A stretch of 54,391 nucleotides of DNA from a virus, in IMG/VR virus record IMGVR_UViG_3300019093_000014, positions 1 to 54,391 of that record, one strand, 5' to 3'. This document shows, piece after piece, positions 2,404 through 23,835 of the stretch. The position numbers and the translations under genes are program-made. Under the pieces are notes generated by a model that worked only from the letters and a program-made list of their open reading frames with translations, did no database searches and was not told the DNA's origin. Numbering within the stretch: position 1 is the stretch's first letter; each line of letters opens with the position of its first letter.

Positions 2404-2405
2404 GA

Positions 2406-5025: not shown

Positions 5026-5033
5026 AAGTATAG

Positions 5034-5062
5034 ATTTTACATGAAAGTCATAGTGAAGTCAA
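5034..5062 (-). promoter_or_regulatory. Sigma70-like promoter for the 387-aa/uvsW operon
   Basis: On the minus strand TTGACT (5057-5062) is followed by a 17-base spacer and TAAAAT (5034-5039). This is the same -35 hexamer and spacer as the promoter before gp55. Transcription would start near 5027, about two bases before the ATG at 5025. It overlaps the 3' end of the glycosyltransferase-like gene upstream, separating that gene from the uvsW operon. Confidence 0.55.
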
Positions 5063-5902
5063 GGTTAATTTATGTAATAATCTGTTCAATGGAACGCCAC
5101 TGACAATTTCTTCAATAGTCCATTCGGTATGAACTAGTTTTTTGAACCATTCAGTTCGATCTAACAAGTATGTGTCATCACTATGAGTAATTGGCATGGA
5201 AACTTCTGAAGCCAAACTACTAGCATCTGTGATCACCGGTATTCCATTGATAGCTGCTTGAACACCCACTCCACTGTTATAATTAACAATGGCGGAATAG
5301 TCAAAATTTAGGTCATATTTGTCATAGGTATTGGCAATTTTAATGGGCTTTACCATAGTGACGTTGTAATTTGTAAAATCACCAATGTCAAATCTTGGGT
5401 GTGATCGAACAACAATTTTTTTCTTGGTAAAATTTTGAATATTTTTTATTTGAGTTATGGTCCACTCTCTCACACGTTGGCCTGATTGCCATTGTAGGCT
5501 ATTTTCATGTTGGGTAGCAATTAAAATAGGTAAATTTTGATCAATTTTTTTACTCTGTAATTCAATGCCTATTTTTTTTGCTCTGTTGTCGTCCAAATCA
5601 GTTTCATTGGCATATATACCATTTTTTGTGATGTTATTTACGGCAACTTTCCAAGTACGTCCACGATCTAGTGCGCCTACTTCTAATATAAAAACTGGTT
5701 TTCCCTGTTTTCTGTAATATTCGTAAATTTGTTTGTTAGGAGCCATTCTTCCCTGCCATAGTACGCTCCAAATTAAGGCTGCATCAGCTGTCATGCTATT
5801 TTCTACAGGAGTAATATTAAATTTTTTACAACTATCTAAAAAACTTTGCCATATAGGTTGAGATTGTTGAGCTGTTTGGTAGGGAAAGTAGGATATATAC
5901 AT
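5048..5902 (-). CDS. Glycosyltransferase-like protein (GT-B / capsule-transferase type)
   Basis: A 284-aa protein that I read as a glycan-transfer enzyme of the capsule synthesis (KpsC/KpsS-like) kind. The C-terminal half has the pattern of a nucleotide-sugar binding lobe: VRSHPRFD (about residue 163), then DYSAIVNYNSGVGVQAAING (about 200-215) and IPVITDASSLASEV. In that superfamily a His/Arg loop and a Ser/Gly-rich helix cap contact the donor. The N-terminus, MYISYFPYQTAQQSQPIWQS, is not a signal peptide. No Shine-Dalgarno is visible before its ATG. The start is 16 bases from that of the divergent gene at 5919. Substrates cannot be read from the sequence. It is the first gene of the accessory region after the replication module. 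Confidence 0.6.
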   Translation of the reverse strand: MYISYFPYQTAQQSQPIWQSFLDSCKKFNITPVENSMTADAALIWSVLWQGRMAPNKQIYEYYRKQGKPVFILEVGALDRGRTWKVAVNNITKNGIYANETDLDDNRAKKIGIELQSKKIDQNLPILIATQHENSLQWQSGQRVREWTITQIKNIQNFTKKKIVVRSHPRFDIGDFTNYNVTMVKPIKIANTYDKYDLNFDYSAIVNYNSGVGVQAAINGIPVITDASSLASEVSMPITHSDDTYLLDRTEWFKKLVHTEWTIEEIVSGVPLNRLLHKLTLTSL

Positions 5903-5918
5903 ATATTATTATTTAATC

Positions 5919-6716
5919 TTGAAACTGCCACCTTTAATAGGGAAATTCCCTCAATCTGATGTTTGTTTTTTTGTAGCTGCTGATGAAAATTATTTTAATC
6001 AGCATGCCAAACCGTTGATTCACAGTATTAGAAAACATTTTTCATACCCCATACACTTTCATTTATACACGCCCAGTGAAGAGTCAAAAAATTGGTGTGA
6101 AGTCAATAGTATTAGTTATAGTTATGAGATTGTTGACGTAAAAATTGTGGATCCAGCATTTGAGATTTATCGTAATCTGCCTAATGATGAGGAATTACAG
6201 CGGCGTCGCAGTAAAATGATCAAGCCTGGTGAAAATGTTGAAAAAATTCGTTATGAGTTGATGAAAACTTATTATGCCTGTACTAGATTTATAAGATTAA
6301 GTGAGTTATTGACCAAACCTACCTATATTATTATGTTAGACACTGACAGTTTGGTTAGAAATAGGTTTGACTTATTAAGTAAGGAGTATGACATACACAT
6401 TTATGAAAAAAATCACAAAAAGCATGTAAAACATACTCAACATTTGGCCAGTACTATATTTTATACTGGGACTGACCGTAGTCTTCGTTTAATTCATGAT
6501 CATGCTCGATTAATCTTAGAGGAATATGCCAAAGATACCTTATATTGGTTTTTAGATCAAGAAACTTTAGATGTGGCTATACAAATATATTCTAAAAAGT
6601 CATTGTCTTTAAGTTTCGTTGATTTTGATATGAAAGAAACCAGTAGTATATGGTGTGCCAAAGGTCCTAGAAAAAATCTACCTATCTGGTTAGCAGAGAT
6701 TAAAAAGTATCTATAA
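5919..6716 (+). CDS. Glycosyltransferase, GT-A fold with DxD motif
   Basis: A 265-aa protein. The N-terminal VCFFVAADENYFNQHAKPLI followed by SIRKHF and IHFHLYTPS is the usual opening of nucleotide-sugar transferases of the GT8 type. YIIMLDTDSLVRN (DTD at about residue 140) is the metal-binding DxD motif. KHTQHLASTIFYTGTD and YWFLDQETLDVAI follow as in that family, where the acceptor and catalytic side sits. The frame has no ATG near its beginning; the only plausible start is the TTG at 5919, after an in-frame stop at 5889. No good Shine-Dalgarno is present. The stop lies one base from the convergent gene, leaving no room for a terminator. Donor and acceptor are unknown. Confidence 0.75.
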   Translation: MKLPPLIGKFPQSDVCFFVAADENYFNQHAKPLIHSIRKHFSYPIHFHLYTPSEESKNWCEVNSISYSYEIVDVKIVDPAFEIYRNLPNDEELQRRRSKMIKPGENVEKIRYELMKTYYACTRFIRLSELLTKPTYIIMLDTDSLVRNRFDLLSKEYDIHIYEKNHKKHVKHTQHLASTIFYTGTDRSLRLIHDHARLILEEYAKDTLYWFLDQETLDVAIQIYSKKSLSLSFVDFDMKETSSIWCAKGPRKNLPIWLAEIKKYL

Positions 6717-6717
6717 A

Positions 6718-7530
6718 CTATTTAAAATATTTAAAATTGTAGTCGTATAAAAGTCCTTTGCTTACGTAATTTTTAAAATCAGACTGATCTTTTAAAATAT
6801 CTATACAATCAGTTAAAAAATAATCTTGAAAATTCTCTGTACGAATATTATTAACATAAAAATCATAACTTAAATCCACCATTTTATATAGATTAGGTAA
6901 AGTTAAATGATTAACTCTAGCATCGACAACGGAGTACTTTACCCAAGCATGATACCAGTAATCCTTAAGAATTCCAACATTTTTAATCTCATTTTTAGAA
7001 ATATCAACTAATTTTATATTAGGTATATAAAGGTTTTTTGGAACTTTGCCTATTGTAGGAAAGATTTTGTCCTCTAATAATTCTAATAATATTATTTTGA
7101 TATTTGGATTATTTAATGCAAAATCTTTTATTAAATATTTGTATGCTAGATGATTGATATCTAGCAAATCGTAATCAAGATTTTCTTTGTACCAATTTAT
7201 ATGATGTTTATTTAGATTATAGTAAGTTGCATGATTCGGATTTATGACAAGTGGGTCATTAAAAGCTGCTGATGAACCTGGATGTTCAATTTGATATTGC
7301 AGAGCAAATCTGCCTACAGTACTTCTTACAAAAATTATCAAATCACCGTCTTTAAATTTATTTTCTTTAATATCATTGACAAACATCTTAATTGCATGTT
7401 CAGCACTGCCGCCGTTCACACTCTTATTATCAAGATCTGCTGACACTCGACTTGCTAAAATTTGAGCCCAAGATGGTCCTCTGTAGTTGTCGGAGGCCAA
7501 ATAGCTATCACCATAACCGTATATTTTCAT
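6718..7530 (-). CDS. SGNH/GDSL-hydrolase-like protein
   Basis: About 270 aa from the ATG at 7530. The start MKIYGYGDSYLASDN puts a GDS motif at residues 7-9, where SGNH hydrolases carry their nucleophile Ser. NGGSAEHAIKMF resembles block II, and DARVNHLTLPN near the C-terminus could supply the Asp and His. Such proteins are esterases or acetyl-transfer enzymes acting on glycans. The frame stays open to an ATG at 7584, but the late promoter at 7547-7554 lies between the two starts, so the downstream one is the sensible choice. A GxND block is not clear, so the enzyme assignment is tentative. It is divergent from the B12-type radical SAM gene and convergent with the GT-A gene. Confidence 0.55.
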   Translation of the reverse strand: MKIYGYGDSYLASDNYRGPSWAQILASRVSADLDNKSVNGGSAEHAIKMFVNDIKENKFKDGDLIIFVRSTVGRFALQYQIEHPGSSAAFNDPLVINPNHATYYNLNKHHINWYKENLDYDLLDINHLAYKYLIKDFALNNPNIKIILLELLEDKIFPTIGKVPKNLYIPNIKLVDISKNEIKNVGILKDYWYHAWVKYSVVDARVNHLTLPNLYKMVDLSYDFYVNNIRTENFQDYFLTDCIDILKDQSDFKNYVSKGLLYDYNFKYFK

Positions 7531-7546
7531 AAAATAATCTTTTAAA

Positions 7547-7554
7547 TATTTATT
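7547..7554 (-). promoter_or_regulatory. Late promoter (AATAAATA) for the SGNH-like gene
   Basis: On the minus strand AATAAATA lies 16 bases before the ATG at 7530. It differs from the T4 late consensus TATAAATA at one position. The same variant is seen before three other units in this window. Confidence 0.55.
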
Positions 7555-7569
7555 AAAGATTGTTTTAAG

Positions 7570-7577
7570 TATAAATA
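7570..7577 (+). promoter_or_regulatory. Perfect T4-type late promoter (TATAAATA), leaderless arrangement
   Basis: TATAAATA on the plus strand ends five bases before the ATG at 7583. In T4 this box occupies about -13 to -6, which would make the A of the ATG the first transcribed base. It sits back to back with the minus-strand late box, with 15 bases between them. Confidence 0.6.
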
Positions 7578-7582
7578 TTCCC

Positions 7583-9586
7583 ATGGATAAACATGTTTGG
7601 TTAGCAGAAAACGTTCTACCAAAAAACGACGGAACTGCACCTAGGAAAAAAAATCTTCAAAGCGTTACCTTTGAAAACGTAACTAGAAAAACTAGATTAA
7701 CTCTTTGTATTTTAGGGTGTTGGGGAATATATTTTCCTCCCTATAACCTAGCAAGATTATCTGGACTAACCAGAGCTGCTGGATTTAAAACCATTGTCTA
7801 TGATTTTAATGTTGATAGTCACCATAGGCTAAAACAATTTAATCTAGATGGCGCATGGGACGCCAATAACCACTACTATTGGTTTGAGGAAGATTATTTT
7901 AATAGATTACACTCTACACTAGAACCAATTTTAAGAGAGTATATAGATAAAATATTAGCTGATGACTCAGATATTATAGGATTTAGTCTATACGATACAA
8001 ATGTAGTGCCCACAGAATGGCTAATAAAAGAAATTAAAAAAATCAAACCAAATGTTAAAATTATAGTAGGTGGTCCAAATTGTCAAATGCCTGAATACAA
8101 TCCTTGTAAAGAAATTGACCATTATGTAATAGGCGAGGGTGAACAGGTACTAATTGATTTTTTAGAAAAATTTGAGAACAATGAACCTATATTAGATAGA
8201 AAATTAGGATCAGCATATAGCGATACAAGAATTGATATTGATAGTCTGCCATTACCAGATTATTCTGATTATGATTTTTCAAAATATACTAGTAGCTATG
8301 GGATAAGTGCAGAATTAAGCAGAGGTTGCGTAGCAAAATGCAGCTTTTGTAGAGAAACTTGGTTTTGGAAATATAGAAATAGAACTTCTGTAAGTATCTT
8401 AGATGAAGTTGAAGATCAATATAAAAAATATGGTATTAGCTTTATTTGGTTTATTGACAGCTTAGTCAACGGCAATCTTAAGGAACTTAGAGAATTTGTC
8501 AAAGGTGTTGTAGCAAGAGGATTAGATATTAAGTGGATGGGGTACTCTCGATGCGATGGGAGAATGGATTTAGAATATTTTCAAGACCTTAAAGCTGGTG
8601 GATGCGTTAATCTAAGTTTTGGAGTAGAATCTGGCAGTCAACATGTGTTAGACATGATGAGAAAAAAGGTTAAATTAAAAGAAATAAATGAAAATTTAAT
8701 TAATAGTAAAAAAGTAGGTATTTATAATCATGTTAATTGGATTGTTGGAGCCCCTGGGGAAACTATTCAAGCCATGGCCCATAGTCTGAATCTTATCTGG
8801 AATCATAGAAAAAATATTGATGGGATAAGCCCCGGTGCTACGTTAGGTGATAGCGCATTAACTGACTATGAATTCAACAGAGATCGATATGATATGAGCC
8901 CAACTGATCAGCTATTTTTAGGAAAGTGGTGGTCATTAGATTGGACTAATACTAAGCTTCATCGTTTCATAAGACTCAAATATTTTAATCTTTGGTTATT
9001 TTTATGTTCTGATAAAAAATACGGAGTTGTAAATAATAATCAAAATAGACCATTGATGCAAAATGACTATGAATTAGTGTTTGGGGATGATGTTTTTCTT
9101 GTGGATCAATTGGAATACGAAGAGTGGGATCACATGGTCATTAAACCAAATTTAGGAGTATTTGCAGATACTGTAGTAAATGAAATGTTCGGTGTTTTAC
9201 GTATGCTTTGGAGAGCCAAAGGAGCATATAGGATAAGCTTTTCTTTTGATAAGACCAAAGATAAAACAGAATTTGGTGAGTATATAAGCGATAACTTTGA
9301 TGCAAATATTGTATTTCAAATAGATCAAAATGGAATTTGGTCCAGTAAGCAAGAATATAAATTTCATCACGAGGGTGAATGGTGGTTAAAAGGCACTAAG
9401 TCTTTTCATTGTAAATGGGAAGGTCACGGTAAATGGTATGAAGATGCAAATTTATCTGAATCAACTACTACTTTTTTTGAAGGTAGCTCAGAAGGGGATA
9501 ATGAGTTAATATCATTAAAACATAGAGCTGGTGATAAAATAGTATCTGGGCAAACTAAAAAAGTGTTTATTATGGAAGTTATTTAG
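7583..9586 (+). CDS. B12-binding-domain radical SAM enzyme
   Basis: A 667-aa protein. Residues about 35-200 form a cobalamin-binding-like Rossmann domain: LTLCILGCWGIYFPPYNLAR, GFKTIVYDFN, DIIGFSLYDTN and KIIVGGPNCQ. The classical DxHxxG His motif for base-off B12 is not evident. Residues about 235-450 are the radical SAM core, with SRGCVAKCSFC giving the CxxxCxxC cluster motif. Supporting features are FIWFIDSLVNGN, LSFGVESGSQHVLDMM and NWIVGAPGETIQ. The family includes methylases of unactivated carbons and other SAM-radical enzymes. The last 150 residues are Trp/Gly-rich beta-like sequence (WWLKGTKSFHCKWEGHGKW) that I cannot place. The ATG directly follows a late promoter, giving an apparently leaderless mRNA. 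The 3' end overlaps the convergent gene by eight bases. Confidence 0.85.
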   Translation: MDKHVWLAENVLPKNDGTAPRKKNLQSVTFENVTRKTRLTLCILGCWGIYFPPYNLARLSGLTRAAGFKTIVYDFNVDSHHRLKQFNLDGAWDANNHYYWFEEDYFNRLHSTLEPILREYIDKILADDSDIIGFSLYDTNVVPTEWLIKEIKKIKPNVKIIVGGPNCQMPEYNPCKEIDHYVIGEGEQVLIDFLEKFENNEPILDRKLGSAYSDTRIDIDSLPLPDYSDYDFSKYTSSYGISAELSRGCVAKCSFCRETWFWKYRNRTSVSILDEVEDQYKKYGISFIWFIDSLVNGNLKELREFVKGVVARGLDIKWMGYSRCDGRMDLEYFQDLKAGGCVNLSFGVESGSQHVLDMMRKKVKLKEINENLINSKKVGIYNHVNWIVGAPGETIQAMAHSLNLIWNHRKNIDGISPGATLGDSALTDYEFNRDRYDMSPTDQLFLGKWWSLDWTNTKLHRFIRLKYFNLWLFLCSDKKYGVVNNNQNRPLMQNDYELVFGDDVFLVDQLEYEEWDHMVIKPNLGVFADTVVNEMFGVLRMLWRAKGAYRISFSFDKTKDKTEFGEYISDNFDANIVFQIDQNGIWSSKQEYKFHHEGEWWLKGTKSFHCKWEGHGKWYEDANLSESTTTFFEGSSEGDNELISLKHRAGDKIVSGQTKKVFIMEVI

Positions 9587-10955
9587 ATTCTATTATTTTT
9601 CTAATATTTCTACAATAGCAATCTTGCCCTAAAACTAATGTACCCACTGGCAAAGTATTTAAAAACCCTTTATAAAACTCTGTAGCCTTTTTCATTCCAA
9701 ACACAGTATTAGTAAAATCTGTAGCAAAAATATTACTAATATTAATTGCTGTCTTATCTACAAAATATTCCACTAAGCTAGTTGGGTGTTGTATGATATC
9801 AGCATTTGCAAATTTTACATTAACATTTCTAAATTTATCTATTAACTTATCAAAATTTAATTTACCCATAAAATATTCTTGAGTAATTTTAAAACTATTA
9901 TGAAAATCTAAAGTAAATTTTCCTTCTTTTCCAAAAACTTTATTTTGAAAAATTTTAAAATTGTCTTTATATGTAAAAGATTTTATTAAATCTTCTATAG
10001 GTTCGTTGTTATCATATATGTATTTGATCCATTCAATACTTAACGGGTTAAAATCATAAATGACAAGTTGACCGTTTTCGTTTATATTTCCCCTAAATAA
10101 TGTATCTAAAAATTTAAATCCAGCTGCTGGCAAAGCTATAGTATCAAATTTTTCTCCCATGAGTTCAAGGTCCATATTTTCACTATTCAATAACCATATT
10201 TGATCTTTAATAGATTTACATTGATTAATCAAGTTTTTTTGATTAGCATTTGCTTCGGGGTCGATATCTAATGTGGTTAATCCTTTAAAAAATCTTTCAG
10301 AATTATCTTCTGGATAGTAGTACGTTCTTTTATCTCTAACAGATTTAGGCCAATTTATTATATCAAAATCATTTCTAGCAGCAGTATCAATAAAATGCCA
10401 TCCTTGTTTGGCGTGGAATTGTTCTTTATATTCCCCATTAAATTTTATCCATAAAGGAGTATAGTCATCATGAAAATTTTCAACACTTCGTTCTATGACA
10501 GGAAGCTCTTTTGTTGTTCCAAACCATCCTCCAAATTTAGGAGAACCTGCCTTAATCCATTTTTTTGTATCAACTAATAAAAATTGATGATGTAACTCAT
10601 ACCATTTATCTTTCCAATCTAATACGTGAGCTGCTACAAAATAGTTTGGATTATTTTTTATTATTTCTTTTATTTCAAATAAGACGGACATGTCAAAAAT
10701 ACGTACACCTCCTGCAATCAACAAAACATGATCATATTCATTTGACAAATCATATAACGCGGTTTCAATGTTTATCGATTGATGTATGTCTATTGGGGGA
10801 TTTTTATCATTTGATAGTTGTTGAAATCTTAACGCATAAAATGTAGTAAACTCCATCATTCTATCCTCTAATTCATCATGTTTTAGGGCATCACTTGGAA
10901 AAATACAAATAGCTAGGTTTACGTCATTAATAAATGGTTCGGTAATTATGTTCAT
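9579..10955 (-). CDS. Unknown two-part protein (458 aa) in the radical SAM operon
   Basis: I do not recognise a family with confidence. The N-terminal half (LAICIFPSDALK, then YDHVLLIAGGVRIFDMSVLF, then YFVAAHVLDWKDKW) has the strand-helix alternation of a sugar-transferase or Rossmann fold, with no clear DxD motif. The C-terminal half (FDTIALPAAGFKFLDTLFRG, GQLVIYDFNPLSIEWIKY, NIFATDFTNTVFGM, VLGQDCYC) is reminiscent of a SAM-dependent methyltransferase, but the glycine-rich loop is unconvincing. It is the last gene of a tightly overlapping minus-strand operon: its ATG overlaps the stop of the hydroxylase gene by four bases. This suggests it acts on the same substrate as the hydroxylase and radical SAM enzymes. 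Confidence 0.7.
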   Translation of the reverse strand: MNIITEPFINDVNLAICIFPSDALKHDELEDRMMEFTTFYALRFQQLSNDKNPPIDIHQSINIETALYDLSNEYDHVLLIAGGVRIFDMSVLFEIKEIIKNNPNYFVAAHVLDWKDKWYELHHQFLLVDTKKWIKAGSPKFGGWFGTTKELPVIERSVENFHDDYTPLWIKFNGEYKEQFHAKQGWHFIDTAARNDFDIINWPKSVRDKRTYYYPEDNSERFFKGLTTLDIDPEANANQKNLINQCKSIKDQIWLLNSENMDLELMGEKFDTIALPAAGFKFLDTLFRGNINENGQLVIYDFNPLSIEWIKYIYDNNEPIEDLIKSFTYKDNFKIFQNKVFGKEGKFTLDFHNSFKITQEYFMGKLNFDKLIDKFRNVNVKFANADIIQHPTSLVEYFVDKTAINISNIFATDFTNTVFGMKKATEFYKGFLNTLPVGTLVLGQDCYCRNIRKIIESK

Positions 10956-11641
10956 AGTTGTTTTAAAGATTCACTTATAAGAGGTTGTATATTGAGACAA
11001 GTTTCCCCATGAATAATTAAATGATATCTATTTTTATCACTATTATTCCAAACAGCATGTTTGATTCCTAAATCTAAAATAAATCCTCTTCCTGGTTTAA
11101 AAGGAACTATTCCGTAATTTTCAAAAACAAATTCACAATCATCGGGGTTGGTCAGTGCAAAATTAAAAGGCCCAAATATCCGCCCGGTTCCATCAGTATG
11201 TGGCATTATATAACCATTAGGCGATAATTTCATAATCCTAATTCTGCCATAGTTCTTAAATGGAAGGGATTTGATAAACTCTGTTAATTTAGGGATTAAT
11301 TTACAAACACTTGTCCAAGTGTAACCGGCATCATCTTGGCTTTTAAAGCCGTATTGACTAAAATCTTCTGTTTTATCGTATTCGATTCCATGAATTGTCA
11401 CTGATTGCCAACCTTCATGTCCGTACGATTTAAATTTATCTTTACTTCTATGAAAAACAAAATAATCATCTAGAATAGTTAACTCATCTAAAAATTCTTG
11501 TTCGAAATAGTTATTGACAAATAAAGGTGCCCAAGGCCAATCACTCTGCCAAATATTCATTGGGACATTCTTAGGGACCCAATTATTTTTTTTATTTTTG
11601 AAAAAAAATTCTTTTAATTCTTCATTCATTTTATTAATCAC
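10952..11641 (-). CDS. Aspartyl/asparaginyl beta-hydroxylase-like 2-oxoglutarate oxygenase
   Basis: A 229-aa protein resembling the Asp/Asn beta-hydroxylase family: iron and 2-oxoglutarate dependent enzymes that hydroxylate a protein side chain or small molecule. The Fe ligands are visible as MPHTDGTGR (HxD, about residues 146-148) and GIKHAVWNNSD (distal His, about 195). A following Arg (KNRYHLIIHG) can bind 2-oxoglutarate. YGRIRIMKLSPNGYIMPHTD is the family core. The first codon in frame is a GTG at 11641 that overlaps the upstream stop (GTGA); an ATG four codons later at 11629 is an alternative, and neither has a clear Shine-Dalgarno. It is coupled on both sides to genes of the radical SAM operon, so hydroxylation is probably one step of the same pathway. 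Confidence 0.8.
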   Translation of the reverse strand: MINKMNEELKEFFFKNKKNNWVPKNVPMNIWQSDWPWAPLFVNNYFEQEFLDELTILDDYFVFHRSKDKFKSYGHEGWQSVTIHGIEYDKTEDFSQYGFKSQDDAGYTWTSVCKLIPKLTEFIKSLPFKNYGRIRIMKLSPNGYIMPHTDGTGRIFGPFNFALTNPDDCEFVFENYGIVPFKPGRGFILDLGIKHAVWNNSDKNRYHLIIHGETCLNIQPLISESLKQL

Positions 11642-12702
11642 ACTTGTTCTAGAATAATTTTTATTGTTTTATTTTTTTTAAGTTGAAATTCGCCATCATC
11701 GTCAAAATTTCTAACATTTTCATTATTTTTAATAATTGGGTGTTTTTTGTCAAAAACTGGCACCTTAGAAATTGAAACATCTGTTCCACAATGACATATA
11801 TGCTGTACACAAATTTCTGCTGTTACAGGTAATTCATTTTTTTCATGTTCATTAATATGAAACAAATCACCGCCTTGGAAACAATTACCTTTTTTAACCC
11901 AGCCCTCGAAACTTATAAAAAGACTTTCTAAACCAATATTACATGCCCACCCTCTAAAATCATTTTGTTCTGCGTTAATTAAAACGTTTGTATCACCGTG
12001 TTGATCCATGGTTCCGTCGTCATAATAAAATTCAGAATGTCCTAGTTTGCTTTTGTATTTAGGATTATTAGTCAAATATTTGTATATTGAAGCACTTTTT
12101 CCTACATTATTCTTAAACCATTCTTCCTGTTCGTCAGTATAATTGTTTCCTATAACTTTACCGGCCATTTCTGATAAAATTCTCACAGGTTCTACTTTTA
12201 TAAATGGACAATTCATATATTCATTAAATCTCTCAACACATTGGTCCCAATAACGATTGTCCATCATAATCCTAATAGCTACATGAGTATGGTTTGACGC
12301 TTTAATTGCCTTATCTAATAAAAATTTATCTTCAAATTGCGGATGATAACTAAAACAAATATAGCTTAGATAAGGAGCTATTTCATCCCAGTAACTAACA
12401 CTTCTGACACCATTACTTGTTATGCCAACACTATTGCCTGAATCATAAAATATTTTAACAAGTTCTCGAAAAAATGGACTTAGTGTAGGCTCGCCACCGG
12501 ATATAGAACAATGAATTGATTTGTATCTGTTTATTAATCGATTAATGAAAGATTTAGCCTTTTCCCAATCATAATGATGATTTGTTCCGGCATGAAGGGA
12601 GGGAGGGCAGTAATCACATTGGTTAGTACATATGTTATTGATCACCCAAGTCAACTGCATAATGTTTTTTGATTGTCTTATCTGAATGACTTTTTTATCC
12701 AT
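11638..12702 (-). CDS. Radical SAM enzyme with C-terminal auxiliary-cluster cysteines
   Basis: About 354 aa. NNICTNQCDYCPPSLH gives the CxxxCxxC motif near residue 22. ISGGEPTLSPFFREL (GGEP, SAM binding) and SVGITSNGVRS follow in the normal radical SAM order. The C-terminal region has additional Cys: GWACNIG, KKGNCFQGG, and EICVQHICHCGTD (CxxxxCxC). This is consistent with a SPASM/twitch auxiliary iron-sulphur cluster as in peptide-modifying enzymes. The frame is open to 12813, but that would overlap the upstream gene by 119 bases; the ATG at 12702 (MDKKVIQIRQSKN) gives an eight-base overlap like its neighbours. It lies between the 326-aa unknown and the hydroxylase. A peptide or protein substrate is likely by family, but not shown. 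Confidence 0.85.
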   Translation of the reverse strand: MDKKVIQIRQSKNIMQLTWVINNICTNQCDYCPPSLHAGTNHHYDWEKAKSFINRLINRYKSIHCSISGGEPTLSPFFRELVKIFYDSGNSVGITSNGVRSVSYWDEIAPYLSYICFSYHPQFEDKFLLDKAIKASNHTHVAIRIMMDNRYWDQCVERFNEYMNCPFIKVEPVRILSEMAGKVIGNNYTDEQEEWFKNNVGKSASIYKYLTNNPKYKSKLGHSEFYYDDGTMDQHGDTNVLINAEQNDFRGWACNIGLESLFISFEGWVKKGNCFQGGDLFHINEHEKNELPVTAEICVQHICHCGTDVSISKVPVFDKKHPIIKNNENVRNFDDDGEFQLKKNKTIKIILEQV

Positions 12703-13675
12703 GATCCATAATTTCCATATATCTAATTGATTCAAAACTTGTAAATATCTGATCATTCCATGCAAGCTTAGTATCACTATTTGGAACTTGCCAATTTCTT
12801 TGATCAGGATCAAAATCCATAAAATATTTATAATTAGTTATCAATTGTCCAATTTTAAATCGACCAAAACAAAACTTATTTAAATTATCAATAGGCACTT
12901 TCTTTCTTAACTCATAAGGCATATCAGCTAACCATTTTTCTATATGAAGGCCTCTATGATAATCAGAACAGTCAGGACCAAAGTTTATCCAAGTTTCTGC
13001 TGAAAACCTTTCTTGAGGTCTAACTTGATCTCGTTCTATCACTTCTAAATCGTTATCAGCATTGACCTTTAGCCAATCTTTACCTAAAGTGTTATATCCT
13101 AAATAAAGTCCGCCCCATTTAAAATCACGTTGCAACCAAATTTTGTCTGATTCTAGAATAGGTTGAAAAGTATCCTGAGGATAATAATCAACAAGTACTG
13201 CCATATTTGGAAAAGGATTATTATTACTTTTAACAACATCCTCATGTAAATGTATTAATTCGTTTAGTTTTAAAAAATTTTCATGTAACTCTTTTGTCCA
13301 AAAAACTTCGCCTAGCGCTGCTTTTGATTGTAATTCTACCAAATAATTTATTCGATCACCGTATTTTTCAAACTCTTCATGTAATGCATTTAATTCAAAC
13401 TCAGATAACTCACCTTTATTATCAAACCATGGAAGTTTGGAATCATAAATATTGTTTATTTTGATCACACAATCGTAGAGATCTTGTCTAACTCTGTCAA
13501 TATTTTTGTAAGTAGTATTTGTAAATCTATAAGTTAATTTTTTATTTTCATTTACTTGGTTTTTTAGGAATATATTAATCCATCTTCTTGCTAATTTGCT
13601 ATCATATATATTGAAGTATAAAGGATGCATTTCACCAGTTCTAGATATAAATTCTATCTTTAATTTTTTATTCAT
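12695..13675 (-). CDS. Unknown 326-aa protein between radical SAM genes
   Basis: I do not recognise this protein. It is hydrophilic with no signal peptide or membrane segment. Residues about 85-160 are helical and acidic (LSEFELNALHEEFEKYGDRI, LKLNELIHLHEDVV). The C-terminal half is aromatic-rich, with blocks such as DKIWLQRDFKWGGLYLGYNT, SAETWINFGPDCSDYHRGLH and NKFCFGRFKIGQLITNYKYF. It overlaps both flanking radical SAM genes by eight bases, so the ribosome should pass directly between them. That placement suggests a partner, scaffold or substrate-binding protein for the radical SAM enzymes. It has no core-like hydrophobic C-terminal tail or Gly-Gly leader that would mark it as a peptide precursor. 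Confidence 0.7.
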   Translation of the reverse strand: MNKKLKIEFISRTGEMHPLYFNIYDSKLARRWINIFLKNQVNENKKLTYRFTNTTYKNIDRVRQDLYDCVIKINNIYDSKLPWFDNKGELSEFELNALHEEFEKYGDRINYLVELQSKAALGEVFWTKELHENFLKLNELIHLHEDVVKSNNNPFPNMAVLVDYYPQDTFQPILESDKIWLQRDFKWGGLYLGYNTLGKDWLKVNADNDLEVIERDQVRPQERFSAETWINFGPDCSDYHRGLHIEKWLADMPYELRKKVPIDNLNKFCFGRFKIGQLITNYKYFMDFDPDQRNWQVPNSDTKLAWNDQIFTSFESIRYMEIMDHG

Positions 13676-14936
13676 AATGATTCCTTAATATATTATAATA
13701 ATCATTATATACATCTTTGAATTTTATTGGTCTAATGGAATCTAATTTTTCAATATAATCTAATAGATCTAAAAATAAATGACTATTGTCCTGAGAATTC
13801 ATTAAGTCTAACTGAGATTTAATTCTTTTCTGCCAAAATACATGCTGATTTAAAAAATCAAAAGATTCCCAATGGTTTATGATTTGCTTTTTAATTTCCT
13901 TAGGCAATACTGTTAAAGACAGGTATTTTGGCCAATGTGTAAATCCAACATAAAATAACCCAAAATGCTTTACCCCAATTTTTTTAAATTTTTGATCAAC
14001 TAATTTCATAGCAAAATTAGGCAAATTATAAACATTCATTGCATGTACAGTTGTTAAAATATTAACTTTTATATTGTTAGGGGAATTATCTAAAATTTTT
14101 AGGTTTTCGTATATTGTTGCCCAATCAGCAGGGTACCTAACATATTCGTTTCTTTCTGCCCAATCATCAATACTAAGTGAAAGCTCAACACCTTTAAATT
14201 TCTTCCATAGATCAAAAAATTTATCTTTTAATACTGTAGCATTAGTATGATATCTTAAAACAATATGTTCACAATCTCCAGTATCAACAAGATATTTTAT
14301 AAATGCTTCGTGATCTTTAATTAATAACGGTTCGCCACCCCCAAAAATGATATGTTTAATATCAGGTGCAAGATATTGTAAACTTTCCTGATTATGTTCT
14401 AAATGAAACCAATCAAACATTTTTGTATCGTCAATACTATTTGCTTTAAATTCCCAGTCTGATTTAGCCGTAGGATATACTAATATTTCGCTTAATTTTT
14501 TACTATCATTTAACCACTTACTGCTGTCCATCGGTCTGCACATAACGCATTGTAAATTACAAGTATTTCCAATTCTTAAATCTAAAGTTATGGGGTTAGT
14601 ATCAACAGATCCGTCTTCTTTGGTATTTTTTATTAAATTTTCTACAAACTCTTGTCCTAAGTTATTAATCCATAATTTATTTTCTATTTGACGATGACTT
14701 ATAATACCACTATCTTCTTCACTCCAGCAAGTGGAGCACTGACTGATTCTTTCCCCATTTAAAAAAGATATTCTTGCTTTTTTAAAATTTTCACTATTCC
14801 AAATCATTATAGGAGATTGATTATTTAAATTTAATCCAACTTCTGGTTTAGCTACACAACATAGTGGTACTTCGCCACTATTGTATGACGCAAAATGAAT
14901 CCATGGCTGAATACAAAAATTCTTTTTATCTAACAT
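13668..14936 (-). CDS. Twitch/SPASM-type radical SAM enzyme, permuted domain order (copy 1)
   Basis: A 422-aa protein. The first 80 residues carry the Cys pattern of a SPASM/twitch cluster domain: FCIQPWIHF, VPLCCVAKPE, MIWNSENFKKARISFL and ISQCSTCWSEE. In most SPASM enzymes this domain follows the core; here it precedes it. The radical SAM core starts near residue 120 with DLRIGNTCNLQCVMC (CxxxCxxC). IIFGGGEPLLIKDH (GGEP) and a strand-helix series follow (VVLR-type YHTNAT, VELSLSIDDWAERNEYVRYP). The C-terminus is helical with no Cys-rich domain. It is a paralogue of the next gene upstream (14926-16245), sharing the same order of motifs. Overlaps of 8 and 11 bases link it to its neighbours. 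Confidence 0.85.
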   Translation of the reverse strand: MLDKKNFCIQPWIHFASYNSGEVPLCCVAKPEVGLNLNNQSPIMIWNSENFKKARISFLNGERISQCSTCWSEEDSGIISHRQIENKLWINNLGQEFVENLIKNTKEDGSVDTNPITLDLRIGNTCNLQCVMCRPMDSSKWLNDSKKLSEILVYPTAKSDWEFKANSIDDTKMFDWFHLEHNQESLQYLAPDIKHIIFGGGEPLLIKDHEAFIKYLVDTGDCEHIVLRYHTNATVLKDKFFDLWKKFKGVELSLSIDDWAERNEYVRYPADWATIYENLKILDNSPNNIKVNILTTVHAMNVYNLPNFAMKLVDQKFKKIGVKHFGLFYVGFTHWPKYLSLTVLPKEIKKQIINHWESFDFLNQHVFWQKRIKSQLDLMNSQDNSHLFLDLLDYIEKLDSIRPIKFKDVYNDYYNILRNHYE

Positions 14937-16245
14937 TATTCATCCAAAAATATAATCTTTGATCAACATCTTCTAAATTTTGAGATCTTTCTCTATCCAA
15001 CGATTCAGTATAAATTTTAAATCTCTGAACTTCCTCACTCCAGTTTATGTTCCTAGGTTTTTGTAAAAGACCTATTATTCCTTGAAGACTGTTCATTGTT
15101 GCTTCAGGATGATAACCCATTTTAGTTTCTTTAAAGTTTAAAATTTCATCCAATGCTTGTTTTCGTAAATCGTCAGGTAATATATCGATATTCAAATGAT
15201 GAGGGTGTATATTGATTAAAAAATCAATAAAAATATTTTTATTATACTTGTTATTTAGATATTCAACCCATTGTAAAATATCTACAATATTAAAAATGTT
15301 GTATACTTGAACTGTAGGTGTTATCCCTAGATGAACTGAAGGAATTTTAACTAACTGCTCAACATTATTACTAATTGCGGACCAATCACTCGGTGATCTA
15401 ATATATTCATTTACTATGCCTATTCCATCAATACTGGCATTTATTTTAATTTCTTTAAACTTTCCAATAATTTCTAACCAATTTTTATTTAAATTAGTAC
15501 AGTTTGTGTTAAAGAATAATAATAAATCGCTTCTATTTGCTTCTATGCATTTTTGCATAAATTTAAAATTATTTTTTATTAACGTTGGTTCTCCCCCGGT
15601 CATATAAACTTTTTTTAATTTTGGTATTAAACTTATAATCTGATCCCACATTATATTGTGGTCAAACCAAACTTGATCTTCCATGACTGTCAATGGAAAT
15701 CTACCAAAAGTTTTCTTCCAAACAGACGCATAATCACTATCCTTTTCATTTAGCTCTATATGTTCCTTTGCTATTTGACTACTGTTCCAAGGATTACACA
15801 TTCTACATTTTAGATTACATAAATTACCAAGTCTTAAATCTAAATAAACAAGATCATCAAAAATATGGCCTTCATTTTCTAATGCTTGATCAATGATATT
15901 TTCTAATTGAGATTCCCCTAATCTCGACGACCATTCTTGATTTGCATGTTGTCGATTACTGGTTCTTCCGCTTTCCTCTTGAAGATAACAAACTTTACAC
16001 CCTTCTATTTTATTATCATTTAACATGTTAATTCTTATAGATTTTAAATCAGAAGAGTTCCATGCATCGCGTACAAAATTATCTTTACAAGAATAAAAAT
16101 TATTATTTTCATTTTTTAATTTATTATGAGATCCTTTAACCATACAGCAATACCTGACAGTAGTATCAGTATTAATCATCAAACTAACAAAAGGAATCGC
16201 ACAAAAACTTTGATTGTTAAAAAGATCTTTTAATTTTTTAGTCAT
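14926..16245 (-). CDS. Twitch/SPASM-type radical SAM enzyme, permuted domain order (copy 2)
   Basis: A 439-aa paralogue of the downstream gene. The N-terminal cluster domain reads FCAIPFVSLM, VRYCCMVKGS, DAWNSSDLKSIRINML and IEGCKVCYLQEES. The core follows with DLRLGNLCNLKCRMC (CxxxCxxC), KVYMTGGEPTLIKNN and IKINASIDGIGIVNEYIRSP. Both copies share the N-terminal cluster, the ISHRQ/TSNRQ segment after it and the (V/I)NEYIR / RNEYVRYP block. They therefore come from one duplication but have diverged widely, suggesting different substrates or successive steps. Proteins of this type are found, from memory, in marine phage genomes as 'twitch domain radical SAM'. The 5' end overlaps the upstream glycosyltransferase gene by eight bases. 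Confidence 0.85.
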   Translation of the reverse strand: MTKKLKDLFNNQSFCAIPFVSLMINTDTTVRYCCMVKGSHNKLKNENNNFYSCKDNFVRDAWNSSDLKSIRINMLNDNKIEGCKVCYLQEESGRTSNRQHANQEWSSRLGESQLENIIDQALENEGHIFDDLVYLDLRLGNLCNLKCRMCNPWNSSQIAKEHIELNEKDSDYASVWKKTFGRFPLTVMEDQVWFDHNIMWDQIISLIPKLKKVYMTGGEPTLIKNNFKFMQKCIEANRSDLLLFFNTNCTNLNKNWLEIIGKFKEIKINASIDGIGIVNEYIRSPSDWSAISNNVEQLVKIPSVHLGITPTVQVYNIFNIVDILQWVEYLNNKYNKNIFIDFLINIHPHHLNIDILPDDLRKQALDEILNFKETKMGYHPEATMNSLQGIIGLLQKPRNINWSEEVQRFKIYTESLDRERSQNLEDVDQRLYFWMNNVR

Positions 16246-17143
16246 TTTCTATTAAATCAACTCTATTATGAGGTTGATATACCATTTTGAAAAATTTAGA
16301 TTGTATACTGCCCAATGTGGCTACACTTAAATCTAAATTGTTAACTAATTCTTTTGCATAAAAATCTAATCTCTCAATGAGATCCATTTCTTTAACTTGA
16401 CTATGCCACATGTCTGTTAAATAGTCAAAATCTCGCACATTACGATAATCCCAATCAGTTAAATTGGTCATATAGCAGCCTTGTCTAGCACCCATCATAG
16501 CCCATAACCCGTTGTCAACGTCACTGCCAATATTACACCATATCATTAGTCTATGTAAGTTTTTCCAATGCACACCTTCTTTTACTGTAACTTTGGTCAA
16601 CTTGGCGCCACGGTCTAGACTCATTTTCACACCTTCTCTAAACCCTGCTCGCCATGCTTGAAAAGGTGTAGCGTTGTTATGTACATCGCTATAACAACCA
16701 TTCATTTGAATGTATTGATTATCCCAACAGAAATCAACTTGGCCCACGCGATCTTTAGGATCAGCATTTTCATGTGTACGCATGTTCATGACAAAGTCCA
16801 CAGTCCAACATTTTAGACCGCCATTGCCATACATTAGGCCATTGATAATATTATATCCACTCCAACTGATCACGCTATTTTCTAAATTGGGATATTTGGC
16901 TATGTCTATTTCTATGTTTAGAAAATCCCCACGAATTATGTTGTCGCCGTCCACTGTAGTAAATCTTGGAGTTTCGCTTAATTGAGCACAGGCTTTGTGG
17001 GCACTGTCACTGCCTTTAACTCCGTGTACACGTTTTGCCCAAGGCACTTTGGTCAATAAATCTGCATAATTTTTCTCAGCATTTGGTTCATCATAACTGA
17101 GATATATGATATCATAATCGAGTGGTCTGAATATTTTTGTCAT
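16238..17143 (-). CDS. Glycosyltransferase-like protein of T4-like marine phages (VDGDN motif)
   Basis: A 301-aa protein. DIIYLSYDEPNAEKNYADLL opens a GT-A type Rossmann half, followed by AKRVHGVKGSDSAHKACAQL. RFTTVDGDNIIRGDFL at about residues 58-73 holds a DxD metal and nucleotide-sugar site. A later DWDYRNVRDFDYL segment is typical of the phage family. I recall close relatives in T4-like cyanophages next to structural or fibre genes. A glycosyl-transfer role is inferred from the DxD motif and context. The gene overlaps the 219-aa gene upstream by four bases and the radical SAM gene downstream by eight, so the glycan and radical SAM parts of the region are one transcription unit. Confidence 0.7.
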   Translation of the reverse strand: MTKIFRPLDYDIIYLSYDEPNAEKNYADLLTKVPWAKRVHGVKGSDSAHKACAQLSETPRFTTVDGDNIIRGDFLNIEIDIAKYPNLENSVISWSGYNIINGLMYGNGGLKCWTVDFVMNMRTHENADPKDRVGQVDFCWDNQYIQMNGCYSDVHNNATPFQAWRAGFREGVKMSLDRGAKLTKVTVKEGVHWKNLHRLMIWCNIGSDVDNGLWAMMGARQGCYMTNLTDWDYRNVRDFDYLTDMWHSQVKEMDLIERLDFYAKELVNNLDLSVATLGSIQSKFFKMVYQPHNRVDLIEND

Positions 17144-17799
17144 ATTTTTGTTCTAATATATTGATATTTTTCAAAGATTTTTCTTGCATATACACTGACT
17201 CTAACTTCATCTTCATCTACTCGATCAAATGGCATTATGCAATAAAAGTTATTAATTAATTCGGTCATAGGCACTTTTAGTGTTTTATAAAGCACATTAG
17301 GATCATTAAATTCTGTTAAGTAGATCTCATAAATTTGATCAAAATACAATTTTCTATCACGTAATGATCTGGCTAGCGTGCCATTAATGTATATTTTCCA
17401 GCAAGTTTCTGTATAGTCTTGGATAACCGTGATGTCGTTAGTGGGATCATATTCTAAAGGAACACTTGTGTCCACTACATATGGAAATTGAAATATCACA
17501 TCATGCACACTTTGTAGTATTTCTTCTTGCTCATCTAATCGAATGAATGCATAGTCCTTGGCATCTGGACTGAAGACTACTTTATAGTTATGGATAACAT
17601 CTGTGCCTTCTAATAAGCTTTTAACTTGACTAAAAGTCACTGTGACCGATGGCAATGTCTGATCATTGGCCATGTTGGATATGCCTTTTATTTCCCCGGT
17701 TTCAGGTTCATAAAAGACAAATCTAAAATCATCTTGTTTAAGTTTGTTGTCGTAGGATTTTAAATCCTCTTCAGTAATGTCCCATTCTACTTGTAACAT
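17140..17799 (-). CDS. Unknown phage protein (219 aa)
   Basis: I do not recognise this family. The protein is acidic and beta-rich (EWDITEEDLKSYDNKL, FRFVFYEPETGEIKGI, VHDVIFQFPYVVDT, CWKIYINGTLARSLRD). It has no enzyme motif, signal peptide or membrane segment. INGTLARSL with nearby beta strands resembles the small repeated strands of phage tail and fibre proteins, so a structural or assembly role is possible. The ATG directly abuts the stop of the glycosyltransferase gene upstream (17800), and the stop overlaps the next gene by four bases. Confidence 0.7.
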   Translation of the reverse strand: MLQVEWDITEEDLKSYDNKLKQDDFRFVFYEPETGEIKGISNMANDQTLPSVTVTFSQVKSLLEGTDVIHNYKVVFSPDAKDYAFIRLDEQEEILQSVHDVIFQFPYVVDTSVPLEYDPTNDITVIQDYTETCWKIYINGTLARSLRDRKLYFDQIYEIYLTEFNDPNVLYKTLKVPMTELINNFYCIMPFDRVDEDEVRVSVYARKIFEKYQYIRTKI

Positions 17800-18642
17800 T
17801 TAGTTAATTCCCGTGATTTTTTCTAATTGATTCAATATGTAATCTGTTAAAAAACTATATTCTGTATAATGGAATAAGCCGTGTTGTTGATAGTTGCCTA
17901 TTTTAAGTTCACATTTTTTATTAAAATATGCCCCTATACTATCCTGCCAAGACTCAGTGGGACTCTCCCAATTTTGAATCATAGGCTTCATATGTGTAAA
18001 AGTTATGGGAGCATTTTTATGACTGATTAAATTTTCACAATCTAAAATCTTAGCAGCCAAACTCATAGTGACATCCATACTGGGCAATTTAGGATAGTTT
18101 ACATTGACATAACGTCCATAAAAAAGTTCCCAATTATTACTGATGTCTTCCACCCAATTGAAATACTCTTTGGAAAACTCGCTCTTTTTAAAATAAGCTG
18201 CACCAAAATAAAAATTTGGTAGATTATTACTATCAAAGGTTTTTCTATAATATCTACCAGTTATAATTTTTCCTCTATAATCTAACACATCACTAGTTAA
18301 AAATAGATTATAATTTTTTAAATAGTCCCACCAAAGATCTAAATTAGAGAATGCTAACATGTCAGCGTCTAATACAATAGTTTCATCGTATGGGCTACAA
18401 TGATAAAGTTTCCATCTATCTTCTGTCTTAAAAAAAGTCGTTGATTTATTTTGATCGCGCCAAGGTACTGGGACTATTTGATCAAATACCAAACGATATT
18501 TTTCAGGAATTTTATTATCAGTGACCAAGCTTATGTCAGCATCGGGCATATGATTTTTAATACTCAATGCCAATGCATACGCAGAACGTGTATATTTTTT
18601 TAATTTAGCATCTTCAGCAAAGATTAAGAACCCTTTAGACAT
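17800..18642 (-). CDS. Glycosyltransferase, GT-A fold, compact paralogue
   Basis: A 280-aa protein starting MSKGFLIFAEDAKLKKYTRS, with VTDNKIPEKYR after the first Rossmann unit. HCSPYDETIVLDADMLAFSN carries the DxD motif (DAD, about residues 92-94). PNFYFGAAYFKKSEFSKEYF and PSMDVTMSLAAKI follow in the acceptor half. The next gene upstream encodes a paralogue with the same start (MSKGVLIYA) and the same DxD block (SPFDETLVIDCDYL), but with about 370 extra residues between them. This compact protein therefore serves as the reference for the uninterrupted fold. The two genes overlap by eight bases. The donor and acceptor are not evident. Confidence 0.8.
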   Translation of the reverse strand: MSKGFLIFAEDAKLKKYTRSAYALALSIKNHMPDADISLVTDNKIPEKYRLVFDQIVPVPWRDQNKSTTFFKTEDRWKLYHCSPYDETIVLDADMLAFSNLDLWWDYLKNYNLFLTSDVLDYRGKIITGRYYRKTFDSNNLPNFYFGAAYFKKSEFSKEYFNWVEDISNNWELFYGRYVNVNYPKLPSMDVTMSLAAKILDCENLISHKNAPITFTHMKPMIQNWESPTESWQDSIGAYFNKKCELKIGNYQQHGLFHYTEYSFLTDYILNQLEKITGIN

Positions 18643-20626
18643 TTAATTCCTCATTTAATAATCTACTAATACTAAACTTATTCATAACATGAACATTAAT
18701 ACCATTAGTTTTCATAACGGTATATTCTCCACGATATTTTTCTTTTTCAATTAAAAATTTCATTTCAGTATTGGTATGTTCGAGTAATATGTCTTTGTCA
18801 ATAGTATAGTATAATTTTCCTGGCAAATCGTGTGCCCATGTACCGTTTTGGTAGCCATTCATAACATGTATAGCAATACTAAAAGCAAAGTCATTTCTAT
18901 ATAAACTTTGCTCTATTTGATAGACATATCTGTAATAATTCCAATTTTCTTGTATATGATTTAGGTAGTCAAAGAAAATTTCAGTATTTTTATTTTTTCT
19001 AAAAAAGAACACAGTGGCCCAATAAAAGTCAATACTTTTATCACTTAGTGTAATTAATCTTGGATCATATCTATATCCACTGAGATCTACAGCTTGTTTA
19101 TGTATTAGAAAATCGTGTGGTTGTTGCCAGCAATATTGTAATATGTCATTGTTAATTAGATAGTCGCAATCAATGACCAATGTTTCATCAAATGGACTTA
19201 ATTCAAAACTTTTAACACGAATATCATTTTTAAATCTTAGTTTTTTATGAGTCATTGCTCCGTCAAAATATTGACGATATTGTGGAGCAGAATCATATAC
19301 TAAAAATCTTTCTTTGGTATCTTCCCACAAATCATATCTAATTTTATCTTTAGTGTTATGTGCAAGATCATAATTTATTAATGACATCCACAAAACTCTT
19401 TCATGAAATAATATATCGCCTTTATTAAATTTGGTTTGCTGCGTTAATTCTTTAATGTTTTCTAAAACAACGTCATATTGAACAAGACTGAATTCTTCTT
19501 TTTCTTCGTATTCAGTATGACACCTATACAAAGTATTTTCATACCAAACATGTTGACCTACCAAATAGGGCAAATTGGGATACCATTTATCAATGTCAAT
19601 ACCTTCATAAACCCTAGTGAAATTATCTTCAATTTTATAAGTTTTTTGAATATTAATATTAGTTATGATTTCTTTTTTTCTCTGTCCATTAATATCACTC
19701 ATCCAAAGACTACGATTAAAAAGAATTATGTCACCTTTGGTTATCTCTTCTAAAATATTCCCGTCTTGAACATTTTCTAATATAATATCATATTGACTAG
19801 CCTTAAACTCTTCTTTTTCTTCGTATTCAGTGTGACATCTATACAAAGTATTTTTATGCCAAACGTGTTGGCCTACCAAATAGGGTAAATTTGGATACCA
19901 TTTGTCAATGTCAATACCTTCGTAAACTGGTTCAAAGTCTTCAATTTTATAAGTTATAATTTCTTTCTTTATATCAAATTTGCTCATCCATAAATTGCGA
20001 GTATATAAGACCAAATCGCCTTTGGATAACTTTTCTATAGCTTCACCATCTTGAACATTGTCAATTAATAAAATATATTTGTCTTTGCTAAATGTTTCGC
20101 CTTCAGTGTATTGAATTGCACATCTATACAAAGTATTTTCATACCAAACATGTTGACCTATCAAATATGGTAAATTGGGATACCATTTATCGATATCAAT
20201 GCCTTGATAAACCGCATCAAAGTCTTCTTGATTAAAAGAATATATAGTTTCTTTAACAACCTCAATTTCTACCTTTTCAACAACTTCAACAACTTCAACA
20301 ACTTCAACAACTTCAACAACTTCAACAACTTCAGGACCTTCATTAATTTTTTGCCATATAGTGCCATTATAAAATGCTAAACTGCCTACAGGATATTGCC
20401 ATGTTGGTGCCCAAGGAGCAACTTCTGCTTCTCGAACAACTTTGATAACCATGTCAACATCATCCTTATAGTTAGGATATTGTTGATATAACCAATCAGC
20501 ACTGTCAGTGACCAATGCCACAGGTATTCCCAAATGCTGTTTTACTCTTCTTGCTGCATTTAAGGCCAATTTAGCATAGTCAATCTGCTCATTGTTTAGA
20601 GCATAGATTAAAACACCTTTACTCAT
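18635..20626 (-). CDS. Glycosyltransferase interrupted by CBM5/12-like repeats
   Basis: A 663-aa protein. Residues 1-70 (MSKGVLIYALNNEQ ... VALVTDSADWL) and about 455-663 (SPFDETLVIDCDYL, DCD near residue 485) together make one GT-A glycosyltransferase, as shown by the 280-aa paralogue next door. Between them lie a short CBM-like motif (VGSLAFYNGTIWQ), a run of six Val-Val-Glu units, and three repeats of about 100 residues. Each repeat has IDIDKWYPNLPYL(I/V)GQHVW and LYRC, then KGD(L/I)(V/I)L(Y/F) and LWMS. The W...Y..G..V.Y....Y pattern is that of family 5/12 (chitin-binding type) modules. The insert would bind glycan next to the active site. Its start overlaps the 115-aa gene by four bases. 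A virion-bound role is also possible. Confidence 0.8.
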   Translation of the reverse strand: MSKGVLIYALNNEQIDYAKLALNAARRVKQHLGIPVALVTDSADWLYQQYPNYKDDVDMVIKVVREAEVAPWAPTWQYPVGSLAFYNGTIWQKINEGPEVVEVVEVVEVVEVVEVVEKVEIEVVKETIYSFNQEDFDAVYQGIDIDKWYPNLPYLIGQHVWYENTLYRCAIQYTEGETFSKDKYILLIDNVQDGEAIEKLSKGDLVLYTRNLWMSKFDIKKEIITYKIEDFEPVYEGIDIDKWYPNLPYLVGQHVWHKNTLYRCHTEYEEKEEFKASQYDIILENVQDGNILEEITKGDIILFNRSLWMSDINGQRKKEIITNINIQKTYKIEDNFTRVYEGIDIDKWYPNLPYLVGQHVWYENTLYRCHTEYEEKEEFSLVQYDVVLENIKELTQQTKFNKGDILFHERVLWMSLINYDLAHNTKDKIRYDLWEDTKERFLVYDSAPQYRQYFDGAMTHKKLRFKNDIRVKSFELSPFDETLVIDCDYLINNDILQYCWQQPHDFLIHKQAVDLSGYRYDPRLITLSDKSIDFYWATVFFFRKNKNTEIFFDYLNHIQENWNYYRYVYQIEQSLYRNDFAFSIAIHVMNGYQNGTWAHDLPGKLYYTIDKDILLEHTNTEMKFLIEKEKYRGEYTVMKTNGINVHVMNKFSISRLLNEELNV
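19330..20225 (-). repeat. Three tandem ~100-codon CBM5/12-like repeats
   Basis: Three consecutive units at about 19935-20225, 19625-19935 and 19330-19625. Each encodes GIDIDKWYPNLPYL and GQHVW, and about 50 residues later a second half-motif GD(L/I)...LWMS. Units 2 and 3 are more alike (LYRCHTEYEEKEEF in both) than unit 1 (LYRCAIQYTEGETF), which points to a more recent second duplication. Confidence 0.85.
20276..20329 (-). repeat. 9-bp tandem repeat, six copies, encoding (VVE)6
   Basis: The plus strand reads TTCAACAAC six times with no interruption, read on the minus strand as GTTGTTGAA = Val-Val-Glu. It is in frame within the interrupted glycosyltransferase gene, between the first short CBM-like motif and the three large repeats. 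It behaves as a linker and is prone to slippage in steps of three residues. Confidence 0.95.
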
Positions 20627-21923: not shown

Positions 21924-21938
21924 TTTAATTCCTTTCGT

Positions 21939-21946
21939 TATTTATT
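21939..21946 (-). promoter_or_regulatory. Late promoter (AATAAATA) for the 299-aa virion protein
   Basis: On the minus strand AATAAATA lies 15 bases before the ATG at 21923 and overlaps the last codon of the upstream fibre gene. An AAAGGAA ribosome site stands between box and ATG. Confidence 0.6.
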
Positions 21947-23804: not shown

Positions 23805-23823
23805 TCCCTAAACCCCTTTAGAA

Positions 23824-23831
23824 TATTTATC
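23824..23831 (-). promoter_or_regulatory. Late promoter (GATAAATA) for fibre 1
   Basis: On the minus strand GATAAATA stands 19 bases before the ATG at 23804, in the 31-base gap between two fibre genes. The same 19-base spacing occurs before gp6 and before the 201-aa gene. Confidence 0.6.
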
Positions 23832-23835
23832 AAAA

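Follow-up and report, generated by a model that had tools for sequence, protein, structure and literature searches.

The DNA analysed here (the window) is IMGVR_UViG_3300019093_000014, a linear viral fragment from IMG/VR that is 54,391 bases long. It encodes a T4-type baseplate wedge protein (gp6; 42074–45547) with ~33–36% identity to Atu_ph07, RaK2 and SCTP-2, homologues of a baseplate hub protein and a late sigma factor, and a UvsW-like helicase (2406–3875). Together with the fibre genes, these features show that the window comes from a T4-like phage of the jumbo type whose genome extends beyond it; this phage is large, uncultured and aquatic. The region considered below (Table 1) comprises fibre genes, conserved glycosyltransferase (GT)-like and small genes, eight cassette genes and a left flank, of which U265 is the final conserved gene ahead of the cassette.

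Table 1. Features of the fibre-cassette region (window positions)
Feature	Position	Strand	Remarks
U284	5048–5902	-	Left flank; GT-B-like by eye; 70% identity in sister phage; no family match above cut-off
U265	5919–6716	+	Left flank; GT-A-like, DTD motif by eye; 82% identity in sister phage; no family match
Exchangeable cassette	6718–16245		Eight genes: SGNH, B12-rSAM, P458, OH, rSAM, P326, TwA, TwB
SGNH-like protein	6718–7584	-	GDS motif; 40% identical homologue in L087 cassette; no Pfam match
B12-binding radical SAM (B12-rSAM)	7583–9586	+	667 aa; PF04055 and PF02310 above cut-off
P458	9579–10955	-	458 aa; GT-A-like N half, SAM-methyltransferase-like C half
OH	10952–11641	-	Asp/Asn hydroxylase-family 2OG dioxygenase; PF05118
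Radical SAM (rSAM)	11638–12702	-	354 aa (corrected start); PF04055; CTNQCDYC and GGEP
P326	12695–13675	-	326 aa; virus-only family; confident model, no similar PDB fold
TwA	13668–14936	-	N-terminal twitch radical SAM; NF033640, 360 bits
TwB	14926–16245	-	N-terminal twitch radical SAM; NF033640, 348 bits
GT301	16238–17143	-	Conserved, GT-A-like; DGD by eye; stop codon is cassette border
S219	17140–17799	-	Conserved protein, member of fixed block
GTa	17800–18642	-	GT-like; conserved DxD in family alignment
GTb	18635–20626	-	GT-like domain with variable insert of CBM5/12-like repeats; PF02839 weak, below cut-off
S115	20623–20970	-	Conserved small protein of fibre-GT block
F299, F619, F946, F650	21024–28628	-	Fibre/virion-protein genes; PHROG tail-fibre matches for F619 and F650

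All four proteins that a sequence-only reading of this DNA had taken for radical SAM enzymes score above the PF04055 cut-off (59.6, 37.1, 41.5 and 30.2 bits) and contain the CxxxCxxC motif; three also contain GGEP, which is missing from the B12 type encoded at 7583. The latter combines B12-binding and radical SAM domains, as a B12-dependent radical SAM enzyme should, and reaches no NCBIfam equivalog cut-off. TwA and TwB lie well above the curated cut-off of NCBIfam NF033640 (170 bits), and TwA shows the N-terminal Cys-rich twitch and CxxxCxxC of that family (C8, C26, C27, C67 and C70). The Asp/Asn hydroxylase-like assignment likewise stands, with 53 bits to PF05118 against a cut-off of 22.6 and an intact iron triad; H148, D150, H195 and R205, corresponding to the HxD...H and Arg of PF05118, are invariant in 34 of 34 homologues.

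Overlaps of 4–11 bases between these minus-strand genes had been described, and the coordinates bear this out for most pairs (4, 4, 8, 8, 11, 8, 4 and 8 bases); one pair abuts (17799/17800) and one start had been mis-set. For the latter, the radical SAM gene at 11638, we rejected the TTG at 12813 because its overlap with P326 would be 119 bases, and reset the start to the ATG at 12702. The true start of the SGNH-like gene probably lies ~54 bases inside the listed ORF, near 7530. Changes at codon position 2 are far fewer than at position 3 in each of the cassette genes compared, a sign of purifying selection. Given this pattern and the recurrence of the gene order in many contigs, the array is not a product of chance. 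An artefactual or chimeric window is unlikely as well, since the order GT301-Tw-Tw-P326-rSAM-OH-P458 recurs in two other contigs (L007, L088) and the TwB start overlaps the GT301 stop. The G+C content of positions 6001–16000, the cassette region, is 0.29–0.31, lower than in much of the remaining window (up to 0.38); the low value is in keeping with a separate ancestry.

The block fibres-F299-S115-GTb-GTa-S219-GT301 is nearly invariant among loci sampled by GTa, a family with at least 584 viral relatives, and GT301 is 93–95% identical in contigs L169 and L170 (93% in L170). In this survey of 46 non-redundant loci, chosen by GTa and not by radical SAM, the gene after the fixed block encodes a radical SAM protein in 39, and a radical SAM gene occurs within the sequenced stretch of 45. 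The family model used detected a hydroxylase in 0 of the 46, and the hydroxylase-P458 version thus represents one allele of a radical-SAM-rich island. Five genes of the region had been called glycosyltransferase-like. None of them (GTa, GTb, GT301, U265 and U284) matches a GT family profile in Pfam, and the one PHROG match is weak and to a PHROG without assigned function, so that the call derives from visual inspection for DxD-type motifs. The GTb insert contains three CBM5/12-like repeats and an EVVEVV run, and differs in length among near relatives (430 [partial], 471, 551 and 638 residues).

Comparison with a sister contig (L170), whose helicase is 98.6% identical to that of the window, delimits the cassette. 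The DNA of the two matches over window positions 1–6727 (84.5% nucleotide identity) and again from 16235 (88.6%). Between these points the sister is unrelated: the eight genes are absent, and ~11.3 kb take the place of 9.5 kb. The replacement genes have matches to GatZ/KbaZ, a HAD phosphatase, a shikimate dehydrogenase N domain, an NTP-transferase joined to APH, a mannose-phosphate isomerase-like cupin and DUF6071, and are accompanied by genes for GDS and GT-like proteins and by two of the twitch radical SAM type. This sugar-nucleotide-type gene set lends some support to the earlier proposal that the locus matures a glycan or the fibres. Conservation at the left border is based on this one sister. 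Homology of three further contigs (L169, L171 and L172) to the window also ends at the GT301 stop codon. In pairwise comparisons of GTa loci, where homology ends near GT301 the break mostly lies no more than 20 bases from the stop codon of that gene, with the reservation that some pairs may have diverged in these genes instead of replacing them. The same eight-gene set recurs in L087 at 40–65% identity beside different flanking genes. Moreover, the phages closest by gp6 (82, 65 and 55% identity) carry unrelated cassettes, and related cassettes occur in phages with gp6 identities of 36 and 46%. At the left junction, no structural border signal stood out, the predicted folding being no stronger than that of shuffled sequences. 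A variable gene set beside fibres and between conserved genes, as found here, is what characterizes a hypervariable host recognition island. On sequence evidence, these comparisons show that 6718–16245 is exchanged as one unit whose ends coincide with gene boundaries, and that it is co-inherited in conserved order with intact catalytic motifs. This exchange suggests that in these phages the chemistry of some surface structure varies, beyond the protein alone.

For two cassette proteins, P326 and P458, searches of Pfam, PHROG and NCBIfam came back empty, and tblastn against 50,697 phage records found neither these two nor GT301 or GTa. Scanning viral contigs with one protein at a time recovered no relatives, and family alignments were required; for P326, the profile was built from unfused members, keeping fused hydroxylase sequence out. 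Family-alignment searches then yielded 144 viral loci for P326 and 310 for P458. Neither family turned up among 84,980 genomes of bacteria and archaea, in a search by short conserved patterns that could miss distant relatives. Sequence searches of the PDB with the family profiles gave nothing for P458 and chance-level matches for P326.

The structure model of P326 is confident (pLDDT 92.9). Foldseek returned no PDB match for it at E ≤ 1e-3, and nine viral structural matches, one of them in Atu_ph07. Four nearly invariant residues, H99, E103, H142 and E145, are placed by the model on a pair of adjacent helices and may form a metal site. P326 is accompanied by radical SAM and/or hydroxylase genes in all 39 non-redundant loci: hydroxylase, P458 and radical SAM in 19, hydroxylase and P458 only in 11, radical SAM only in 7, hydroxylase and radical SAM in 2, and neither partner in none. 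In two loci (L265 and L268), small P326 modules devoid of GT genes adjoin fibre genes. As judged from these neighbourhoods and the fusions described below, the loci show P326 to be a hub that pairs with, and is fused to, either radical SAM or hydroxylase.

For P458 (model pLDDT 93.1), Foldseek matched majastridin, LH3 and COLGALT1 to the front part and NNMT to the rear, at E values of ~1e-4 to 1e-3; for the GT-A folds, E values of ~1e-4 come with a whole-chain TM score of only ~0.2–0.25. The N-terminal half has no conserved DxD; at the end of the strand where the motif would be expected, the residues are AGG, PDT, CQG or QSI. DxD is not universal among GT-A enzymes. As modelled, P458 would join a glycosyltransferase-like to a methyltransferase-like fold. 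Among 33 flanked non-redundant P458 loci, 27 contain the hydroxylase, 24 P326 and 20 a radical SAM gene.

Four kinds of fusion occur across the loci: P326-OH, P326-rSAM, OH-P458 and P458-B12rSAM (the last in L021, L025, L096–L099 and L147). Sampling by P326 and P458 finds two half-modules apart from each other, Tw-P326-rSAM and P326-OH-P458, and the window carries both. In a freshwater group (L116–L144), a single OH-P458 fusion of ~670 residues adjoins P326 in the replication gene region, next to an SbcCD-like gene, a VWA-type peptidase family and a clamp loader, and away from fibres, GTs and radical SAMs. The expectation that P326 and P458 always co-occur with radical SAM genes did not hold, as these are absent from 11 of 39 P326 and 13 of 33 P458 loci. 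The idea of a single pathway is supported in part: the genes are inherited together next to the fibres, and P326 was never found without one partner or the other, but P326-OH-P458 lacks radical SAM in 11 of 39 loci and Tw-P326-rSAM lacks hydroxylase and P458 in 7 of 39. Elsewhere, seven twitch radical SAM genes in a row are followed by P458 and hydroxylase (L149:337–9051). In marine virus AG-345-D19 (L006), a twitch radical SAM gene lies beside genes for a GDS protein and for sulfotransferase-like, amidinotransferase-like and carbamoyltransferase-like proteins, all by eye.

The sequence-only reading knew of no described phage system with this combination, which is too strong a statement. Pelagimyophages, likewise T4-like aquatic phages, have hypervariable host-recognition clusters with tail fibres, glycosyltransferases and radical-SAM cassettes in their structural region (Zaragoza-Solas et al. 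2020, PMC7029224). An Asp/Asn hydroxylase belongs to the core of those phages too. Divergence there, however, is described as gradual and not as complete replacement, whereas in the present case a stop codon marks the point at which the entire cassette is exchanged; P326 and P458 families, a hub or exact borders are not described. Metaviromic islands (Mizuno et al. 2014, PMC3909814) are similarly variable, rich in host-recognition genes and endowed with Fe(II)-dependent oxygenases, but are smaller (up to a few kb) and derived from read recruitment, and the text uses no glycosyl- terms. Agrobacterium phage Atu_ph07 carries an island (gp165–gp172) that also lies by fibre and baseplate genes and includes three radical SAM genes and, in gp166, a protein resembling P326 by predicted fold. 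Unlike the window, it has C-terminal SPASM-type radical SAMs and a CHxS-tailed protein, and is devoid of a PF05118 hydroxylase and P458. Beside its radical SAM genes, this island encodes a protein ending in CHSSCHASCHNSRSRR, the CDS with which the Atu_ph07 virion-protein gene cluster starts (PMC6102473). Atu_ph07 gp170 (L167:21119–22009), whose neighbours are a cupin-like gene and three of the radical SAM/SPASM type, ends in GVDFCHSSCHASCHNSRSRR. A second phage family, phrog_35144, ends in a stretch that matches the 32 C-terminal residues of gp170, and this tail may therefore be a portable modification tag. In Vibrio phages K566 and K567, four twitch radical SAM genes are interleaved with GT-like genes (L005:14962–22701 in K566, a cultured jumbo phage), but no P326, P458 or hydroxylase was recognised in that cluster. 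Collagen-modifying LH3 and COLGALT1 resemble the OH-P458 fusions, by a weak fold match, in joining a hydroxylase to a GT-A-like domain; compared with LH3/PLOD, PF05118 is another hydroxylase branch, P458 is without a conserved DxD and the fibres are without collagen-like repeats. A collagen-like fibre target was ruled out, as the fibres contain no Gly-X-Y runs longer than two. Hypervariable host-recognition islands with GTs, radical SAM enzymes and Fe(II) oxygenases are thus already published (PMC7029224; PMC3909814); new here are the precise ends of the replaced segment, P326 and P458 as virus-only families, the fusions that tie radical SAM to 2OG enzymes by way of P326, and the separable halves.

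We suggest, with a probability of roughly one half, that the genes between U265 and GT301 are an exchangeable cassette for chemical decoration in the host-recognition region, adjoining the tail-fibre operon. The conserved GT-like genes would build a core glycan on the fibre or another surface structure, which the cassette enzymes would alter by radical SAM oxidation or rearrangement, B12-dependent C-methylation and 2OG hydroxylation. P458 might add glycosyl and/or methyl transfer, the SGNH-like protein esterification, and P326 substrate presentation or a metal-dependent step. Swapping the cassette would then create a new surface chemistry while leaving the polypeptide backbone of the fibre recognisable. 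We infer the target, substrate and order of reactions; most simply, the neighbouring fibres would be the target. Several observations argue against such decoration: the freshwater P326 and OH-P458 fusion is located among replication genes, with no fibres or GTs nearby; the GT assignments find no profile match; the N half of P458 has no conserved DxD; the cassette encodes nothing for exporting a glycan across the membrane or polymerising it; and no precursor peptide was seen. In a bolder version, which we consider rather improbable, P326 would have a new fold, depend on a metal and bring radical SAM and 2OG enzymes to bear on one fibre-borne substrate, with large aquatic phages changing their surface chemistry by swapping whole cassettes beside conserved fibre and GT-like genes and the modifications being new to virions.

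The main competing explanation is that the cassette alters a host surface glycan (O-chain or capsule) during infection and thereby excludes competing phages, the fibres being mere neighbours. This is how GT-rich pelagimyophage clusters have been read (PMC7029224), and it would suit the sugar-nucleotide-type genes of the sister cassette. It fits less well that the genes lie within a fibre/late-structural operon, that the fibre-adjacent GT block is nearly invariant, and that the small GT-free P326 modules also sit beside fibres. Moreover, no gene for a flippase, a polymerase or a membrane GT turned up; we regard this explanation as unlikely, though a serious contender.

Less probable still is that radical SAM enzymes and hydroxylase perform a RiPP-like peptide maturation on a virion or host protein, with the GT-like genes unrelated. 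Named NCBIfam relatives of the radical SAM genes are mostly peptide maturases, and the Atu_ph07 island, with its tailed protein beside radical SAMs near fibre and baseplate genes (PMC6102473), offers a parallel. However, no precursor peptide, and no CHxxCH tail as in Atu_ph07, was found in the window or the related cassette loci; the coding density leaves virtually no intergenic space for a precursor, overlapping small ORFs being possible, and the sister's swap brings in sugar-type genes. That the genes are a loose set of auxiliary functions gathered in a hypervariable region is the least probable of these explanations: P326-OH-P458 and radical SAM genes do occur apart and cassettes vary greatly, but the conserved order, the overlapping starts, the four fusion kinds and the return of the full set in L087 beside other flanks speak for a common function.

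Tail-fibre variation is usually ascribed to change in protein sequence. The exact replacement of an enzyme cassette by the fibre operon suggests a second route of variation, which can be tested by mass spectrometry. The radical-SAM-rich island is present in hundreds of environmental contigs, and the two virus-only families linking radical SAM and 2OG chemistry, one of them with no similar solved structure, would offer enzymologists new partners and assign a function to the many radical SAM genes of marine phages.
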